A DNA stretch of 15,184 nucleotides from Dehalococcoidia bacterium (GTDB lineage Bacteria; Chloroflexota; Dehalococcoidia; JACVQG01): assembly GCA_015661045.1 (NCBI GenBank), contig JACVQG010000004.1, positions 1-15,184 on the forward strand, read 5' to 3'. Position numbers and translations under genes: made by a program. Below the pieces are notes generated by a model. It was not told where the DNA came from. It saw only the letters and a program-made list of their open reading frames with translations, and ran no database searches. Shown in pieces: positions 1,941-10,639 of the stretch; position 1 is the first letter of the stretch; the number at the start of each line of letters is the position of its first letter.

Positions 1941-4274
1941 TTGATAGATACCACCGCCTTTATTAACCACTTAAAATCTGATACTTCCTACCGTGAACAA
2001 ATAGCCCATATCGAGGCTATTCCACTGCGGCCGGCTCACTATGGCAATCTGGAGCAACCCCTCTCCAAATCCCTGGAGGAAACCCTGTTAACGTCCAGGG
2101 TCTTGCCTTTGTTTAGCCACCAGGCGAATGCAGTAAACGCCATTCGCCGGGGTGAAAATGTAGTAGTAGCCACCGCCAGCGCCTCCGGGAAGACACTGTG
2201 CTACAACATCCCCGTTCTGGAAGCCATGCTGGCCGATAAATGGAACCGGGCTATGTACCTTTTCCCGACCAAGGCCCTGGCCCAGGACCAGGAACGGGCG
2301 CTTAGGGAACTGGCTTCCCCGGGGATTTTGAAAGGGATTGAAATAGCCACCTTCGATGGCGATACGCCGACACAGTTGCGGGCAACTATAAAGAAGCAAA
2401 CAAAAATACTGCTGACAAATCCCGATATGCTGCACCTGGGCATCCTGCCGAATCACGGCTCATGGGCGCGATTTATACGTCACCTTCGCTACGTTATAGT
2501 GGACGAAGCGCATGCCTATCGCGGGGTATTCGGCTCTCACGTAGCCCATATACTCCGGCGGTTGCGCCGCCTCTGTGCACTATATGGTTCATCTCCCCAG
2601 TTCATTCTGGCTTCGGCCACCCTTGCCAATCCGGGAGAACATGCTCAGAAACTGGTAGGGTTGCCTTTCAGCGTAGTATCCGACGACGGCTCGCCATATG
2701 GAGGCAAAGACTTTATCTTCTGGAATCCACCCCTGGTTGACCCGGCTAAATCGGTGCGCCACAGCTCCAATAGCGAGGCTACCTTCCTGTTCACCGAATT
2801 GCTGAAAAAGCAGGTCCGCAGCCTGGCCTTTGCCCGTAGCCGGAAGCTAACCGAATTGATTTACATCTATTCCCGCGATGAGTTGTCCAGGACAGCGCCC
2901 GCCCTGGCAGACAAGATAATGCCATATAGGGCCGGCTATCTTCCGGAGGAACGAAGACAGATTGAACAGGGTCTTTTTTCTGGCCGGCTGATGGGGGTGG
3001 TCGCTACTAATGCCCTGGAGTTGGGTGTGGATATCGGCGACCTGGATGCCACAATCCTGACCGGCTACCCCGGCAGCATTGCCAGCACCTGGCAGCAGGC
3101 CGGTAGAAGCGGCCGGCGGCGGGAGAAATCGCTGAGTTTCCTTATAGCCCTGGATAACCCCCTCGACCAGTACTTTATGCGCCACCCTGAAGCCCTCTTT
3201 GGCCGGTCATCGGAATTTGCTTTAATAAATACGGGTAATCCATACATCCTGAAGCCCCATCTCCTGTGCGCTGCATGGGAACTGCCGCTCAAAGCCGATG
3301 ACGTATCCCTCTTTGGCGACAGCTTTTCAGGTGCAATCGCCGAATTGATTGAGCAGGGGTATCTCCGTAATAAAAATGACCGCTGGTATCTTTTGCCCTC
3401 GATTACCTATCCGGCCCAGAAGACAAATATCCGCTCGACATCCGAGAGAAATTACTCCATCTGGGATACGTCCAAGGATAGCTTATTAGAGGTTGTAGAG
3501 GGGGCGACTGCTTTCTTCCAGGTGTATCCCGGCGCTATATACTTACACCAGGGCCAGCCTTATCTCATTACGTCACTGGATGTGGAGGGCCATAAGGCTT
3601 ATGCCGAGCCTACGGAAGTCAATTACTATACTCAGACCAGGGATATCACCAGTCTAAAGGTGTTAAAGGTGTTACAGGAGAAAGTAGCCGGTAATGTTAA
3701 AGCCTATCTAGGGGAAGTAGAGGTTACCGCTCAAGTAGTGGGATATAGGAAGAAGATGCAGTTCACCGAAGAGGTTATCGGTGAGGAGCCATTGGACTTA
3801 CCCTCCCACGTATTCCCGACTCAATCGTTGTGGTTCGATCTGCCACCTGACGCTGAGGAAAGATTAGCCGATGCAGGTCTGGATTTTGCCGGAGGCTTGC
3901 ATGCCCTGGAACATGCCGCCATCGGGCTTTTACCGCTGTACGCTCTGTGTGACCGCAATGATATCGGGGGTCTATCCACGACCTTTCACGCTGATACCGG
4001 CCGGGCGCAGATTTTTATCCATGATGCTCATCCCGGGGGTATCGGTATCGCTGAAAAGGGCTATGAGCTTATTAAGGAGCTGTGGGACGCAACGTCTAAA
4101 GCTATCGGGGAATGCCCCTGCCAGGACGGCTGCCCGAGCTGCATCCAATCGCCCAAATGCGGAAATAACAATGAGCCGCTGGATAAAGAGGGGGCCAAGC
4201 GTTTATTGGACTGGTTGGTTGAAAAGCCGGTATCTGGTAATATCCCTGTTTCTCAGGATGGTGGTGTTAAGTAA
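1941..4274 (+). CDS. mrfA: MrfA/YprA-like DEAH-box DNA repair helicase with DUF1998 domain
   Basis: The 777-residue protein is an SF2 helicase of the YprA/MrfA type. Helicase motifs appear in order: motif I ATASASGKT (77-85), DEAH (188-191), SAT (225-227) and motif VI QQAGRSGRR (385-393). The C-terminal DUF1998 part ends in a tetracysteine site C725-x-C727-x3-C731-x2-C734, the same spacing as the zinc site of Bacillus subtilis MrfA (about 749 residues). There, MrfA is a 3'-5' helicase for mitomycin-type DNA damage acting with the nuclease MrfB. No mrfB homologue is adjacent here. The TTG at 1941 is the only plausible start near the N-terminus, as the next in-frame ATG lies inside the helicase core; its ribosome binding site is poor. 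Probably cotranscribed with the upstream DUF503 gene. Confidence 0.9.
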   Translation: MIDTTAFINHLKSDTSYREQIAHIEAIPLRPAHYGNLEQPLSKSLEETLLTSRVLPLFSHQANAVNAIRRGENVVVATASASGKTLCYNIPVLEAMLADKWNRAMYLFPTKALAQDQERALRELASPGILKGIEIATFDGDTPTQLRATIKKQTKILLTNPDMLHLGILPNHGSWARFIRHLRYVIVDEAHAYRGVFGSHVAHILRRLRRLCALYGSSPQFILASATLANPGEHAQKLVGLPFSVVSDDGSPYGGKDFIFWNPPLVDPAKSVRHSSNSEATFLFTELLKKQVRSLAFARSRKLTELIYIYSRDELSRTAPALADKIMPYRAGYLPEERRQIEQGLFSGRLMGVVATNALELGVDIGDLDATILTGYPGSIASTWQQAGRSGRRREKSLSFLIALDNPLDQYFMRHPEALFGRSSEFALINTGNPYILKPHLLCAAWELPLKADDVSLFGDSFSGAIAELIEQGYLRNKNDRWYLLPSITYPAQKTNIRSTSERNYSIWDTSKDSLLEVVEGATAFFQVYPGAIYLHQGQPYLITSLDVEGHKAYAEPTEVNYYTQTRDITSLKVLKVLQEKVAGNVKAYLGEVEVTAQVVGYRKKMQFTEEVIGEEPLDLPSHVFPTQSLWFDLPPDAEERLADAGLDFAGGLHALEHAAIGLLPLYALCDRNDIGGLSTTFHADTGRAQIFIHDAHPGGIGIAEKGYELIKELWDATSKAIGECPCQDGCPSCIQSPKCGNNNEPLDKEGAKRLLDWLVEKPVSGNIPVSQDGGVK

Positions 4275-4484: not shown

Positions 4485-5714
4485 ATGTTCGATGTGGTGA
4501 TTATCGGCGCCGGGCCTGCGGGCAGCCATACCGCCAGACGGCTGGGTGAACTCGGCTACCGGGTGGTGGTGGTGGAGGAGCATAAACAGATCGGTGAGCC
4601 GGCCTGCTGCACGGGCATCCTGGGTAAAGACTGCCTGGATGAGTTCCCTATCCCGCCTGAGCTGATCTGGCTACAAACTGGCACAGCCCGGTTCTATACC
4701 CCTTCAGGTTCATCTTTTACCCTATCTAAGGAGCCTGCTCAGGCTTACATTTTAGACCGGGTGGGACTGGATAGAGCATTAGCTGCCCGGGCTGAAAAAG
4801 CTGGCGTCGAATACCTGTTGCACAACAAGGCCCATGAGATAACCTGGAAGAATACCGGGGTCGAGGTAACCATTAAAAATGGCGGGCCACCGTCTAAGCT
4901 TGAAGCTAAAGCCGCTGTGCTGGCCTGTGGCCCTTCCAATCTCCTGGCGCGGGGTTTGGGTTGGGGAGACATTGGGGATTGGGTATTAGGCGCACAGGCA
5001 GAAGTGGAACTGAGGAGTGCGCCTGAGGTAGAGGTCTATATGGGGCAGAACATCGCTCCCGGTTTTTTTGCCTGGCTTGTGCCCACAACTCCGGGTATGG
5101 CCTTAGCTGGCCTCCTCTGCCGTCAAAACCCTGCTGGCAGGATAAAAACGTTTTTAGATAAGCTTTGCAAAGACGGGAAAATACTTTCATCTCAAGTTAA
5201 AATCAGCTATGGGCGAGTGCCATTGCAACCCCGCCAGAAAACATATGGGGAACGTGTGTTAGCAGTGGGTGATGTCGCTGGCCAGGTAAAACCGACGACT
5301 GCCGGAGGTATCTATTACGGTTTTCTCGGCGCTGAGATTGCTGCACAGGTACTTCACCATGCCTTGCAGCGTAACGATTTCTCTGCCCAATTCCTCTCCC
5401 GTTACCAGAGGGAGTGGAAGAAAAGGCTGGGTAAGGAAATCCGGGTTGGATACTGGGCAAGACGTTACTACGAAACACTCAATGATAAACAAATCGAAGA
5501 TGTGGTCAACCACCTGAGAAATTCGGGCTTTTTACAATCCGTCTATCAGTCACAGGAATTTTCGTTTGACTGGCATTCCATCGCCATTATTAAGACACTT
5601 GGTGCGAAAGCGCTGCCGCATCTCCTCAAAACCCTGGCAGGTTCGTTGTTGCCGGGGAACAGACGGAGGAAGAATGGCGGGGATGAAGAAGAGACAGAGG
5701 AAGGATTAGGGTAG
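4485..5714 (+). CDS. Geranylgeranyl-reductase-family FAD-dependent oxidoreductase
   Basis: The 409-residue product has an N-terminal Rossmann FAD site, GAGPAG (8-13), with a following acidic residue at the end of strand 2. It also has the cysteine-bearing GEPACCTG segment (37-44) typical of geranylgeranyl reductases, a DRVGLDRAL motif (91-99), and the second FAD motif GDVAGQVKPTTAGGI (262-276). This family reduces isoprenoid double bonds (lipids, quinone or chlorophyll side chains) using FAD and a reduced donor; the exact substrate cannot be read here. The C-terminus is basic, then acidic (EEETEEGLG). No membrane segment is evident. It stands alone with its own promoter, and the ribosome binding site is weak (TAGGTG at about 4470). 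Confidence 0.88.
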   Translation: MFDVVIIGAGPAGSHTARRLGELGYRVVVVEEHKQIGEPACCTGILGKDCLDEFPIPPELIWLQTGTARFYTPSGSSFTLSKEPAQAYILDRVGLDRALAARAEKAGVEYLLHNKAHEITWKNTGVEVTIKNGGPPSKLEAKAAVLACGPSNLLARGLGWGDIGDWVLGAQAEVELRSAPEVEVYMGQNIAPGFFAWLVPTTPGMALAGLLCRQNPAGRIKTFLDKLCKDGKILSSQVKISYGRVPLQPRQKTYGERVLAVGDVAGQVKPTTAGGIYYGFLGAEIAAQVLHHALQRNDFSAQFLSRYQREWKKRLGKEIRVGYWARRYYETLNDKQIEDVVNHLRNSGFLQSVYQSQEFSFDWHSIAIIKTLGAKALPHLLKTLAGSLLPGNRRRKNGGDEEETEEGLG

Positions 5715-5735
5715 CTTTCTCAGTGTGTGACAGCT

Positions 5736-5785
5736 AGCCCGTAGGGTGGGTGTAGTTCCAACTTCATAGAGATGAACCCCATCCT
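5736..5785 (+). repeat. Dispersed GTAGGGTGGGT repeat, copy 1
   Basis: The first 21 bases (5736-5756, core CCGTAGGGTGGGTGTAG) are identical to 8697-8717 in the same orientation. The rest is a diverged match: CTTCATAGAGATGAACCCC here, against TTTCATCGCTACGAAACCC in the other copy. GGTGGG near the left end and CCCATCC near the right end make it weakly palindromic. It lies between the flavoprotein gene and the 3' end of the helicase-nuclease gene. Confidence 0.75.
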
Positions 5786-5897
5786 GCTCTTTGAGTTGTA
5801 AGAAATACTACTGTAAGAACGGTGCGAAAAGTTACCGTCGGCATACGACTACGGATGTTCGCGAATACTGATGTGGTCCCAATGCGTGCATTCCAGA

Positions 5898-8507
5898 CTA
5901 CAATTTCCATTCTTTGAGGACCACTTTTGTTGTAAGGATTCGAAGGTCGGAATCCAAGGCTCTCAATAGCCACCCACTAGGAGGCAACTTTGGGCGAATT
6001 GGGATGAAAGCCCTCCGGCGGGTATTAATGTCATCAAGAGACCAAGACGCACGATACTCGGATAGTAATTGTTTAACGCATTTCCATAATTCTTGGACCG
6101 CCTGTTTCTGAATTACGCGGATTTCGCCAGCCGACGACTCCGCGTCAGGCATAAGTTCTCCCAGATGCGTTACGATGGAACCGCGTATAACATACCCCAG
6201 ATTTTCATATTCTTTTTTCGCGCGGGCGATTTGATTATGGGCTTGGCCTATATCACTAGCTGTCACTTTAGCCGAAGGATTATCTTCTATCTTGGCTTCA
6301 TAGGTAAAGACCTCTTTCAAATTACCAAAAATGCCTCTCCATTGGCAGTCGGTGGCAGAATTATTTTTGGGTGAGGAGCTATCGTATCCAAGCAGTTCTC
6401 CAAATATCTTTAGACCGCAAACATACTCTTTGTGTCGTTTTGAGTCCAAATCTACGGTAAGTTTGTTACACCAGTTTTCAAATCTGTTGCCTCGTGTACC
6501 TAGTTCTTCGAGTTTTTTGTCAAAAGCTCTTACGATTGACTGCAAATATTCCTCGACATCGACAGCCACTGACGTTATGGCTTGTCCTCTCGCCCTGTTC
6601 AATGAGGCCCTCATTCTGTTGAACCAAGACGAAATTCCTCCCCGAGCTATCGCCTGTTCAAAGATTTGAAAAGCCTGTTCCTTGGCTGCAGTATCCCCCA
6701 GGAGTGACTTCAAGTACAGTGCTTTAGCCCAACACCATCCATAGTACGCCCCGAGTTCAACAAGTCCAGCACCACGTGCCCATTCCCAGCAAGCTTTAAA
6801 CTTCTCCGCAGCCACGCCGTAGTTCTGCGAGGAGAACATTGCTGCCCACGCGACTACCTCGTCCTCTGCAACGTCGGGGAAGTCGGGTGTGTTCGCGGTA
6901 ACAGGCACACTCGCAAGCATCTGCTTAACTGACTGGTCGTGTTCAGAGAAGCTGCCACTTAAAAAGTCTTCAACTTTCCGTTCCAAGTCGCTCACATCTA
7001 TCTCAGCCATTTCCTCTGCCATGTCGATTTCCGCCACAACATTCCTTGAAATACCCTCCCTGTTGGATTCGCGTCCGAAATGTGTAGCGAATCTTCGATC
7101 TGCCAAGATATACACCGCGTAGTCGTCCGGTGCCCGATTACAACGACCCAGCGCCTGGACAATACGTTGGTTTAGTCGGCGCCGCATGAAACCCGAGTCG
7201 CGCAAATACTCGCACAAGAATTCCTCTTGCGCGTTTATTGCCCTCGGCAGCGTTGCTATTACAACAAGCCTGCACTGGTCGCCCTGGAAGTCCATCCCAT
7301 CGAACCGTCCCCCAACAAAAAGGTGCCCGTTTTTAGCGACCTTGAACTGGTCAATCTCATCCCCCAGGTTGCTAAGCAGCCATGTTTGATCCCCGGTTAC
7401 CCCGTTTTTGCTCAGCCACTCAGAAACCATCGTTCTGAACTTCTCAGCTTGAACTCTGCTGGTGCACATCCATACGCTCTTGGGGCATTTCTTTAAGGCA
7501 GCAAGAATCGCGGCCTGCAGTCTGGTGGGAATATCGTCATCCTCGATACGATTCATAACTATCAGTCTTCTGCCAACAGTTGCTTGAGAGAATTCCTCCG
7601 GTACGGGAATCTTCTCAATTCGCTTGGTTCCAAGTCGGCGACACAGGTCGGATGGTTGCCCAATTGTGGCACTCATATAAAGTCGCTGTGAGGCCCCTGA
7701 ATAATGGTCATTGTTTAGCAGAGGGTAAACGTATGGTCGTATCCATATGGAGTCCAAACTCAAATAGATATTTGACTCATTCAATGAATTACGCATTCTG
7801 CTCCACCGGAACTTCAAATCCATGTTGGTCTTCAACAAAGATGAAGCGTCAATTATCTCCTTTAAACGGCTAGCGACATTTACTTGGTCTATGAATGACA
7901 AGAGTTCCGGAGCTGTAGTGGGTGGTGTTTCGTCACTAAGCGCATCTTGGAGAACGACGTACTCGGGAAATCGGTTAACCAACTCTGTGACAAGAGCCTT
8001 AAAGAGGTCTTTGTGCTCAAAGCGACTAATTTCGACGGACCAGAGTGAATGAAGACAATGCTCGGCCAAATGGGCGTCGTCCAGAACCAGCAAATCTGCT
8101 GGGTCGACCACTGGATTCTGATTAAAGTACACCCAGTAATTCATGACTGCGATCTTGCCGGCCCGCTGGTAATCTCTCTTGTCCTTTGAGGGAATTTGTT
8201 CCGCCTTTCCTTCCATGAGCACTGCGGGTATGCCAAGTTCCCGCGTTTCTGCAAGCATCTGGCGCGCGAGCGTTTTGTTGGCGCTTAGGATCGCAACCTT
8301 TTTCCCCGCGCTTCGCCATGTCTCAGCGATGAGTAAAGAGATTAGCGTCTTCCCCGCACCAGTCGGTAACTCAATGGCTACGTCTGGCTTATCCTTGAAT
8401 TCCTCGGAATATTTGCCAAGAACGTAGGCTTGAGGAGGCCACAATTCTTTGAATTTCTGCGAATTAAATCCTCGTAGAAATTCTGAGAAGTCTTGGCTTA
8501 CCTTCAT
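5898..8507 (-). CDS. XPD/DinG-like helicase fused to TPR-like region and PD-(D/E)XK nuclease
   Basis: The 869-residue product begins with an SF2 helicase: Walker A LPTGAGKT (47-54), motif II DDAH (143-146), SAT (279-281), the DinG/XPD-style motif V region GGRFDGMDFQGD (399-410) and motif VI QALGRCNR (451-458). About 130 helical residues between motifs II and III occupy the place of the XPD Arch domain. No iron-sulfur cysteines lie between motifs I and II. Residues about 548-638 look like TPR-type helix pairs. The end (about 695-760) shows a helix, D720, then YEAK (E737, K739) and a DIGQAHNQ helix (Q755), matching the D-ExK-Q pattern of PD-(D/E)XK nucleases. The ATG at 8507 has GGAGGAGG nine bases upstream; a 43-residue extension to 8636 would begin upstream of the promoter's -10 box and is rejected. 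A stand-alone ATP-driven nuclease, possibly anti-phage; helicase certain, nuclease probable, role inferred. Confidence 0.85.
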   Translation of the reverse strand: MKVSQDFSEFLRGFNSQKFKELWPPQAYVLGKYSEEFKDKPDVAIELPTGAGKTLISLLIAETWRSAGKKVAILSANKTLARQMLAETRELGIPAVLMEGKAEQIPSKDKRDYQRAGKIAVMNYWVYFNQNPVVDPADLLVLDDAHLAEHCLHSLWSVEISRFEHKDLFKALVTELVNRFPEYVVLQDALSDETPPTTAPELLSFIDQVNVASRLKEIIDASSLLKTNMDLKFRWSRMRNSLNESNIYLSLDSIWIRPYVYPLLNNDHYSGASQRLYMSATIGQPSDLCRRLGTKRIEKIPVPEEFSQATVGRRLIVMNRIEDDDIPTRLQAAILAALKKCPKSVWMCTSRVQAEKFRTMVSEWLSKNGVTGDQTWLLSNLGDEIDQFKVAKNGHLFVGGRFDGMDFQGDQCRLVVIATLPRAINAQEEFLCEYLRDSGFMRRRLNQRIVQALGRCNRAPDDYAVYILADRRFATHFGRESNREGISRNVVAEIDMAEEMAEIDVSDLERKVEDFLSGSFSEHDQSVKQMLASVPVTANTPDFPDVAEDEVVAWAAMFSSQNYGVAAEKFKACWEWARGAGLVELGAYYGWCWAKALYLKSLLGDTAAKEQAFQIFEQAIARGGISSWFNRMRASLNRARGQAITSVAVDVEEYLQSIVRAFDKKLEELGTRGNRFENWCNKLTVDLDSKRHKEYVCGLKIFGELLGYDSSSPKNNSATDCQWRGIFGNLKEVFTYEAKIEDNPSAKVTASDIGQAHNQIARAKKEYENLGYVIRGSIVTHLGELMPDAESSAGEIRVIQKQAVQELWKCVKQLLSEYRASWSLDDINTRRRAFIPIRPKLPPSGWLLRALDSDLRILTTKVVLKEWKL

Positions 8508-8623
8508 TTCTCGTCGCCTCCTCCGTAGAGTACGCATACATAGCTTTGGCCGGTCTGTTAGGCCTGTAAAAAGCGGGTACGCTAGTCGAAGATCTAAATG
8601 GCAAAGTAGCGACCTTGGCCTAT

Positions 8624-8652
8624 ATCTTATTCCCATTAGCCTTGCTTTTCAA
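8624..8652 (-). promoter_or_regulatory. Promoter of the helicase-nuclease gene
   Basis: Read on the minus strand, TTGAAA (8652-8647) and TAAGAT (8629-8624) are separated by exactly 17 bases. Transcription would start near 8617, giving a leader of about 110 bases to the ATG at 8507. The promoter lies inside the interval bounded by the two 21-bp repeats, so the module carries its own expression signal. Confidence 0.6.
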
Positions 8653-8696
8653 GCTACGGAGCCAGTGTGAAATCGCTAAAGCCGCCGAGGGTGCCA

Positions 8697-8752
8697 AGCC
8701 CGTAGGGTGGGTGTAGTCACGGTTTCATCGCTACGAAACCCACCATAACCTG
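8697..8752 (+). repeat. Dispersed GTAGGGTGGGT repeat, copy 2
   Basis: Bases 8697-8717 are identical to 5736-5756, and the remainder is similar but diverged. GGTGGGT (8706-8712) pairs with ACCCACC further right (about 8737-8743), so this copy can form a stem-loop. It lies upstream of the helicase-nuclease gene and abuts the decayed gene to its right. Confidence 0.75.
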
Positions 8753-8795
8753 GTCAACATTATATACCCAATCCCGGCGGCTAGCCTGTCGTGTA

Positions 8796-9167
8796 TCAGG
8801 CCATCACCTTGTCTTTGACTTCCGGTTTCGCGGGTCACCAGTTGAACGCCAGCCCGCTCAAGAACTGCTGCGAAAACCAGATGGACGAACTCCTCACAGT
8901 CTGCTTTTGTCTGTCAACTCGAGGAGATACCGTGGGTTACCTGGGAACATAGCCTTGACCAGACTCTCGACCCTGTCTTTAGCCTCCGGTGAAGGGTTGT
9001 TCTCCAGCGCCTCAAAGACCTCTTCGAGTGTTTTCCTGGTTGGCGGCCTTCGTCCGGTTCACCCTGCCCCTCTTGCCTTCTGCCAGAAGCCCTCTTGCCT
9101 CCCAGTATTGCCTCTCCTCTTCGAGAGTCGTGAACTCAGGAATTGCTTTGGTTTTTGTTATTTTCAT
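8796..9167 (-). pseudogene. Frameshifted remnant of a ~123-residue gene downstream of glgA
   Basis: Read on the minus strand from the ATG at 9167, only 11 bases after the glgA stop, the first frame gives 51 residues (KAIPEFTTLEEERQYWEARG) and stops at 9012. The next frame continues with protein-like sequence (KTLEEVFEALENNPSPEAKD) to 8894. A further +1 shift gives CEEFVHLVFAAVLERAGVQL. A third returns to the original frame and ends KPEVKDKVMA at 8796. The whole span is 124 codons, so three one-base shifts would restore one reading frame. The N-terminus vaguely resembles CopG-type antitoxin N-termini (PEF..EEE..YWE), from memory only. It could instead be a short intact gene of 51 residues. There is no clear ribosome site beyond translational linkage to glgA. 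Confidence 0.45.
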
Positions 9168-9178
9168 AGTTCCAAAGC

Positions 9179-10639
9179 CTAATCCGCCCTTGCCTTAACC
9201 TCATTTTTATGATGGTTGATAGCCCTCTCGTAAACCGCCTCGTACTTTTTAGCTGACGCCTCCCAGGAGAACTCAGTTTGCATAATACGGAGCAATACCT
9301 GTTGCCAGGCTTCTTTCCGGGGAAAGGCAGCTACTGCTCGCTTTATTGCCAGCACTAACGCATCGCCGTCATAAGATTCAAAAACAAATCCCCGGCCCAA
9401 TTTAAGATCGGGAGACAAATCGGGGACGGTCTCGTCCAGGCCTCCGGTGCGGCGGACAATGGGTATTGTTCCATAGCGCATAGCAATCATCTGCCCCAGG
9501 CCGCAGGGCTCAAAACGCGACGGCATCAGGAAATAGTCAGCGCCGGCATAGATGAGGTGAGCCAGAGGGTTGTCAAAGGCTATAATTACGGCCACCCGGT
9601 CGGGGTACTGGCCGGCCACCTTTTGCATGAGTTGATGGTAGATTTCCCGCCCTTTGCCCAGCACTACAAGCTGAGCATTTGTGTCCTTCAGTATGGAGTC
9701 CATTGCCTTTTCTAAGATGTCAAAGCCTTTCTGTTCATCCAACCTGGTAACCATGCCGATTAAGGGAATATGTTCATCCTGAGGCAGACCGGCCCGCTTC
9801 TGGAGGGCTAGTTTATTGACTGCTTTCCGCCATATCCGGGAACTATCATAGTTGGCAGCTATGAGAGGGTCTGTGGCCGGGTCAAACTCGCTATAGTCAA
9901 TCCCGTTGACTATGCCCTGAAGCTGGTCTTTTCGGAAACTGAGTAATGATTCCATACCGGCTCCATATTCCGGTGTCAGGATTTCCTGGGCATAGTTCTG
10001 GCTTACAGTGGTGATCATGTCGGAATGGAGAATGCCCAGGGCCATCATATTGAGAGACAGGGAGGGGAATAGTTTTTTACTTGATTCAAAGTCTTCCTGC
10101 AAACCTGAAGAAGCCAGGAATGAGTCGTCGAAAGCCCCCTGGTATGCCAGGTTGTGTACTGTAAAAACTGTAGCGGAGGGGGTTTTGAGTCTGTGAGCGT
10201 TCAGAACGGTCACCGCAGTGTGCCAGTCATGGCAGTGAATAACATCGGGCTGCCACCCTATTTTTTGCGGCAGGGCTATGGCGGCATTGGAAAAGAAAAT
10301 AAAACGCTCCAGGTCGTCAGCCTCTCCATAAACTGCCGGACGGGCAAAATAGGTCTTGTTGTTAATCAGGTATACAGGCAGGTTGCCGTTAAGGGCTGTG
10401 GACTGGATTGTAACCTGTTCAGGCTGTTTTTTGGTAGCTATTGTAAATGTCCTACCTACTGTAGTGGTTGGGTGGGTTTTCTCATCGATAAGGCTATAGT
10501 GGGGCATGGTAATTCGGACATCATGACCCAGTTTAGCCAGGGCTTTAGGTAGTGAGCCGACTACATCCGCCAGTCCTCCTACCTTGGCTAATGGTGATAC
10601 CTCGGCGGCACAGAATAAGATTTTTAATGGTTGAACCAT
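9179..10639 (-). CDS. glgA: Glycogen synthase (ADP-glucose type, GT5)
   Basis: The 486-residue protein transfers glucose from ADP-glucose to the non-reducing end of alpha-1,4-glucan in the cytoplasm. GT5 signatures are clear: the N-terminal KVGGLADVVG loop (19-28) that binds the donor, HCHDWH (135-140), VHNLAYQG (161-168), TRLDEQKG (298-305), and SRFEPCGLGQM (374-384) with the conserved E377, followed by RTGGLDETV (397-405). Length is typical for the family. The ATG at 10639 follows AAAGGAA on the minus strand at good spacing. The gene lies 26 bases downstream of glgC and is surely cotranscribed with it. No branching enzyme or phosphorylase gene is in the window. Confidence 0.97.
   Translation of the reverse strand: MVQPLKILFCAAEVSPLAKVGGLADVVGSLPKALAKLGHDVRITMPHYSLIDEKTHPTTTVGRTFTIATKKQPEQVTIQSTALNGNLPVYLINNKTYFARPAVYGEADDLERFIFFSNAAIALPQKIGWQPDVIHCHDWHTAVTVLNAHRLKTPSATVFTVHNLAYQGAFDDSFLASSGLQEDFESSKKLFPSLSLNMMALGILHSDMITTVSQNYAQEILTPEYGAGMESLLSFRKDQLQGIVNGIDYSEFDPATDPLIAANYDSSRIWRKAVNKLALQKRAGLPQDEHIPLIGMVTRLDEQKGFDILEKAMDSILKDTNAQLVVLGKGREIYHQLMQKVAGQYPDRVAVIIAFDNPLAHLIYAGADYFLMPSRFEPCGLGQMIAMRYGTIPIVRRTGGLDETVPDLSPDLKLGRGFVFESYDGDALVLAIKRAVAAFPRKEAWQQVLLRIMQTEFSWEASAKKYEAVYERAINHHKNEVKARAD

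Follow-up and report, generated by a model that had tools for sequence, protein, structure and literature searches.

Hna (helicase-nuclease abortive infection), a single-gene system of S. meliloti pSymA, is built in the order HEL1, HEL2 and C-terminal PD-(D/E)XK nuclease, with a reduced Arch and without Fe-S (PMC13381803). The protein is a Mg2+/Mn2+-dependent 3'-5' exonuclease of single-stranded DNA (ssDNA) without apparent unwinding; it is restrained by ATP-bound dimerisation, and the single-stranded-DNA-binding protein (SSB) of phage 5A frees the nuclease (PMC13381803). PMC12445080 reports that hna alone restores phage resistance and is apparently under extensive horizontal transfer, and PMC12278908 counts Hna among the defence systems with SF1/SF2 helicases. 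According to PMC11811056, PDC-S28 systems are among those named otherwise by DefenseFinder; the main text of that paper does not mention Hna. Here we describe a gene on the minus strand of contig JACVQG010000004.1 from a Dehalococcoidia bacterium (Chloroflexota; assembly GCA_015661045.1), within a stretch of 15,184 nt that we call the window. Its product is very probably a single-gene anti-phage helicase-nuclease of the Hna (PDC-S28) family, though a divergent one. The basis of the assignment is computed: the helicase is homologous to that of Hna directly and the nuclease by way of an intermediate clade, the fold matches over the whole length, and the active-site residues are shared. The Hna family thereby takes in a divergent branch with members in Chloroflexota and other phyla. 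A sequence-only reading of the same DNA could name no defence system for a gene of this order; Hna has that order, so that a gene that once looked nameless receives a name, that of a known defence family and not of a new system. Its kind is ordinary, and its value lies in its differences from Hna.

PADLOC searches matched the window protein twice to PDC-S28, with E 2.3e-86 over 16-823 and E 5.1e-76 over 15-820. Both models, PDLC04986 and PDLC04987, were covered almost completely, but the scores were moderate (255 and 289 bits), and the protein is therefore probably away from the sequences used to build them. The sole sequence match below 1e-10 in the PDB was 10uj_A/9yhn/9ykj, which is Hna (845 aa), and we located its gene on pSymA (L002:5830-8367). 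Because S. meliloti Hna scored 1020 and 400 bits on the same two models, PDC-S28 and Hna were taken as one family, and the window protein, which matches PDC-S28, therefore belongs to the Hna family. The fold search likewise returned Hna, not DinG, as the best match, and the whole-length match to the solved Hna, a comparison across several domains, had an rmsd of 8.6 for 743 residues. Like Hna (PDB 10UJ/9YHN/9YKJ), the window protein is the product of one gene and a single chain of family size (869 aa against 845; family about 840-870 aa), in which an N-terminal XPD/DinG-type SF2 HEL1-HEL2 module without Fe-S is followed by a C-terminal PD-(D/E)XK domain with catalytic D, E and K. The earlier suggestion of a stand-alone helicase-nuclease with a likely defence function, its nuclease at the far C-terminus, is borne out. 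The features of the gene, in window positions, are the following.

8517..8524, minus strand: Shine-Dalgarno-like GGAGGAGG before the ATG at 8507 (read from sequence)
5898..8507, minus strand: hna-like gene (Hna / PDC-S28 family), 869 aa (open reading frame and family matches)
8346..8369, minus strand: Walker A, LPTGAGKT, residues 47-54 (sequence and homologue alignment)
8070..8081, minus strand: motif II, DDAH, residues 143-146 (sequence and homologue alignment)
7665..7673, minus strand: motif III, SAT, residues 279-281 (sequence and alignment)
7134..7157, minus strand: motif VI, QALGRCNR, residues 451-458 (sequence and homologue alignment)
6501..7046, minus strand: helical middle, residues 488-669, TPR-like by eye, with a weak profile link to Hna (model and profiles)
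6045..6485, minus strand: PD-(D/E)XK nuclease domain, about residues 675-821 (alignment, model, profiles and fold comparison)
6291..6350, minus strand: catalytic D720 ... E737-A-K739, equivalent to Hna D713, E727 and K729 (alignments and PMC13381803)
5901..6029, minus strand: C-terminal tail, residues 827-869, shorter or different in S. meliloti Hna (alignment and model)

The open reading frame (ORF) is intact from ATG to stop, with no internal stop. Pfam placed ResIII/DEAD at 21-148 and Helicase_C_2 at 380-475 and found no family past the latter. A homologue search for the window clade gave at least 911 matches among 7996 candidates; residue counts refer to the 120 matches listed, P0001 included. 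D143, D144, S279, Q451, G454 and R455 were each found in all 120, and K53 in 119, with a gap in the remaining one, so that the four helicase motifs named in the earlier reading are present and conserved. Because there is no cysteine between K53 and D143, an Fe-S site of XPD type is absent, as had been noted. As a candidate for a reduced Arch, the structure model shows a helical insert at ~145-241, which lies within the range aligned to Hna; a single-sequence AlphaFold model of the protein was poor (pLDDT 37.4) and was not used. The middle of the protein, described earlier as TPR-like, is indeed a succession of helices, and no Pfam TPR was matched at E up to 1, which leaves the label as descriptive only. 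For the far C-terminus, the proposed nuclease pattern D720...E737-A-K739...Q755 held up: the three catalytic residues were invariant among the 120 homologues (Q755 was kept in 119), and the predicted structure of the domain showed the PD-(D/E)XK order of elements, its weaker part being block 711-720 (mean pLDDT 67). In a joint alignment of 367 proteins (120 + 120 + 118 + 9), D720, W723, E737 and K739, equivalent to Hna D713, W716, E727 and K729, were identical in every protein. K729A abolishes the exonuclease of Hna and P712A/D713A/E727A lowers it markedly (PMC13381803); at P712 the window protein differs and has T719.

Profile comparisons connected the parts of the protein to Hna, each E-value applying to one comparison. 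The helicase halves of the window and Hna clades aligned directly over 420 columns with E 5.1e-27 (hhalign). The nuclease was linked through an intermediate clade, obtained by a homologue search from a Paenibacillus plasmid protein (118 of the 120 proteins listed were used, the other two having fewer than 780 aa): window against intermediate clade gave E 1e-24 over 177 columns, and comparison of the intermediate clade with Hna gave 209 columns at E 2.4e-14. No link appeared in crossed controls, with E 0.49 and 0.59 in the intermediate-clade runs and 0.64 and 0.29 in the direct runs. For the helical middle, window against intermediate clade gave E 2.5e-9, and intermediate clade against Hna was weak (probability 46%, E 2.1e-4). 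In a midpoint-rooted tree of 74 proteins (24 of the window clade, 15 of the Hna clade, 26 of the intermediate clade and nine ungrouped rows), the window, Hna and intermediate clades were each set apart from all other rows by a branch, supported at 100, 100 and 95, and had long stems, the one that leads to the window clade together with a Rhodococcus protein measuring 2.04 changes per column; the tree program warned that long branches meet. In the literature on Hna and PDC-S28, judged mostly by titles and abstract openings, no title concerned the window branch, and we do not claim that it is undescribed.

An SF2 motor is common to the window protein and to DinG, CasDinG and XPD, from which it differs by the missing cysteines and by its C-terminal nuclease; DinG/XPD rows listed in the fold comparison stop by residue 525 and CasDinG rows by residue 504 of the window protein. 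The typeIV_DinG profile matched its helicase part with E 4e-31, which would suit a DinG helicase from type IV CRISPR, but Hna matched the same profile too (E 1.6e-12), and no csf gene was present among the ten neighbours scanned in the 15-kb window, the rest of the genome not having been searched for csf. Given these neighbours, the shared profile and the short CasDinG rows, we set this reading aside as having a negligible chance of being right. Nhi, Hhe, Hachiman (HamAB) and AbpAB also combine helicase and nuclease against phages, and Hachiman, Nhi and AbpAB are among the systems stimulated by phage SSB (PMC13381803). HamB matched the window protein only weakly, in the helicase (E 0.0078).

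The likeness of the helicase part to DinG/XPD, together with the metabolic genes that neighbour it in the window, would also suit a chromosomal helicase-nuclease of the ExoDinG/XPD kind with a housekeeping role in DNA repair or processing. The distribution of the gene and of its relatives speaks against such a role. Five of 60 genomes, its own included, had any match; of the other four, two (G057 and G047) carried family-sized proteins with the active-site residues kept (L006, L007) and two carried short ones. One same-genus genome, 93% complete, had no match, and the genome carrying the window is itself a 2.14-Mb assembly, 67% complete. With E 1e-3 or better, a PDC-S28 model matched 91 of 301 phylum genomes (own included), covering more than 770 model positions in only five; the remaining listed matches were short, up to about 120 positions. 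Because this screen was unspecific, with matches also in 8 of 14 control genomes, only whole-length matches were counted, and their rate (5/301 = 1.7%) is near the ~2% of bacterial genomes in which Hna is found (PMC13381803). When one genome of each species was scanned with two short peptide patterns, at least 11 loci with relatives came up, a lower bound with patterns of this kind. These loci are titled Thorarchaeota, Chloroflexi, Phycisphaerae, Actinomycetota, Nocardia, Planctomycetota, Gammaproteobacteria, Enhygromyxa and Acidobacteria, several being contigs of metagenome-assembled genomes whose titles are possibly wrong.

Among these homologue loci, ORFs were listed in 8 of 11, and 19 neighbour proteins were picked by eye from L010, L011, L013, L014, L015 and L019. 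Fourteen of the 19 matched PADLOC models (E limits 1e-8 and 1e-6), and five of the six loci had at least one such neighbour; some matches were partial, for example those of a GajB-like protein and a type II enzyme. Locus L013 (2-16569), a striking case, reads PglX, SoFic, PglZ and BrxL, directly after these the homologue, and then McrBC-type genes, PglX, PglZ and BrxL being BREX-type; L010 carries a type I specificity subunit, L014 SIR2-HerA, L015 a type III methylase and nuclease, and L019 GmrSD/HEC-05. Homologues are thus not confined to housekeeping operons, one of the points on which the sequence-only reading had proposed to be judged, even though the window's own neighbours are metabolic. 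In view of the patchy presence, the BREX, SIR2-HerA and type I and III restriction genes beside homologues, and Hna rather than DinG as best fold, the housekeeping repair helicase was set aside as very improbable.

Several results weigh against membership of the Hna family and a defence role. Identity between the window protein and S. meliloti Hna is only 18-21%, depending on the alignment. Direct comparison of the nuclease between the two clades (window-clade 640-869 against Hna-clade 625-845, both narrow, with Neff 2-3) failed, giving 21 columns, probability 8% and E 0.0043, and for this reason the nuclease link needs the intermediate clade; the middle regions failed as well (probability 1%, E 0.05). 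In the HEL1 loop of Hna, where T30, D31 and P34 sit and a triple change breaks the dimer (PMC13381803), the window clade has K at D31 in 115 of 120 and is variable at P34; Hna R36 corresponds to W23, with W in 71, R in 45 and a gap in 4 of the 120. The count of defence neighbours has no random-locus control, and choice by eye favours matches. In the window only one of ten neighbours matched PADLOC, an MrfA-like helicase (best BrxHI 7.1e-41, with 30 more), a match that we read as the shared helicase motor.

The loop positions bear on how the nuclease is controlled. Of 120 Hna-clade proteins, 119 retain D31 and P34, and T30 is not kept even there (H 93, T 3 of 120). The intermediate clade has D at D31 in 17 of 118, mostly H (51), G (34) or Y (19) at P34, and W at R36 in all 118. 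The only position of the S. meliloti-type loop and ATP-site set (T30/D31/P34, R36/Q39) kept in the window clade is Q39, as Q26 (115/120); the set as a whole is lacking from the window protein, and we did not treat it as family-defining. As far as these alignments go, which for so short a loop are somewhat uncertain, the branches compared do not share the residues that underlie the published ATP-locked dimer.

By analogy with Hna, the C-terminal nuclease of the window protein would degrade ssDNA from the 3' end with Mg2+, and the SF2 helicase module would act mainly as an ATP-binding switch, with the nuclease held off in the healthy cell. A phage factor, in Hna the SSB, would release it, and the DNA damage would end the infection with loss of the cell. 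Action in phage defence is highly likely, and an ATP-restrained 3'-5' ssDNA exonuclease is a reasonable expectation; SSB as the trigger would be close to an even bet, and formation of the same loop-made dimer appears unlikely. The off-state is probably held differently, since the window protein has not retained the dimer-loop residues of Hna. A protein of Hna fold may therefore defend by another route, with the nuclease held off within one chain, for instance by a branch-specific tail, instead of by an ATP-stabilised HEL1-loop dimer, and with a different trigger such as DNA ends or another phage protein. The altered D31 and P34, kept only in part in the intermediate clade, and the long stem to the window clade and the Rhodococcus protein would fit such a route, as would the C-terminal tail of ~40 residues that marks the branch: R830, P842, W846 and W867 are conserved in at least 90% of the window clade, block means in the model are 79-93, and Hna has other or no sequence there. 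On the other side, fold, motifs and active site are kept, the same dimer could form through other contacts, and the loop alignment, the variable T30 and the long branches of the tree all call for caution. We give this route a real prospect, though short of even. More tentatively still, we suggest as one possibility that the window protein represents a branch deep within the Hna family, with members on contigs from several phyla and with the same nuclease and motor, in which the HEL1 dimer-lock loop was lost or never present and restraint of the nuclease is intramolecular, perhaps exerted by the branch-specific tail. If so, the published autoinhibition model would apply to a single branch of the family. 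The differences at the loop residues make it directly testable, with one additional protein, how general the Hna switch is.

Relatives of Hna seem to be present in some phages or prophages, since phrog_16128 of PHROGs (827 positions) matched Hna almost over its whole length (59-810, E 1.3e-119); it matched the window protein only at 23-502. Viral contigs gave 44 pattern matches with no relative among them, by two exact peptide patterns that would miss distant relatives.

The hna-like gene sits between a geranylgeranyl-reductase-like gene (named by eye; Pfam FAD-binding families) and glgA. In G002, a genome from the same taxonomic order, two ORFs that are ABC-transporter-like by eye lie between reductase and glgA. 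In G001, of the same genus (L033:613-1384), a small ORF, HicA-looking by eye and with no Pfam match, and then a HicB-type antitoxin gene come after the reductase; this contig ends there, the glgA side not being joined. The site of the hna-like gene looks variable. The earlier idea that the gene forms its own promoter-bearing cassette found no backing, as 5600-9300 contained 2 promoter-like matches against 2.7 expected by chance, one of them upstream of the gene (8652-8624). A terminator scan did no better than chance, and Rfam gave no match at gathering score. Between the hna-like gene and glgA (8508-9167) there is no convincing gene; minus-strand pieces in three frames resemble a broken small gene, the first of them (51 aa) resembling a CopG-type antitoxin by eye, with no Pfam match.

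Three further observations were made. The MrfA-like DEAD helicase (window 1941-4274) has an MrfA Zn-binding domain and adjoins DUF503 and treble-clef zinc-finger genes, an order kept in G001 (L033). The genome carrying the window has a second, weak PDC-S28 match in another long frame (G000:C163:2654-2977; 19 bits, E 2.1e-4), perhaps its own DinG-type helicase. Finally, a reverse transcriptase of group II intron type (RVT_1 + GIIM), along with another ORF of 325 aa, apparently interrupts the homologue of Enhygromyxa salina (L019:10001-15145).
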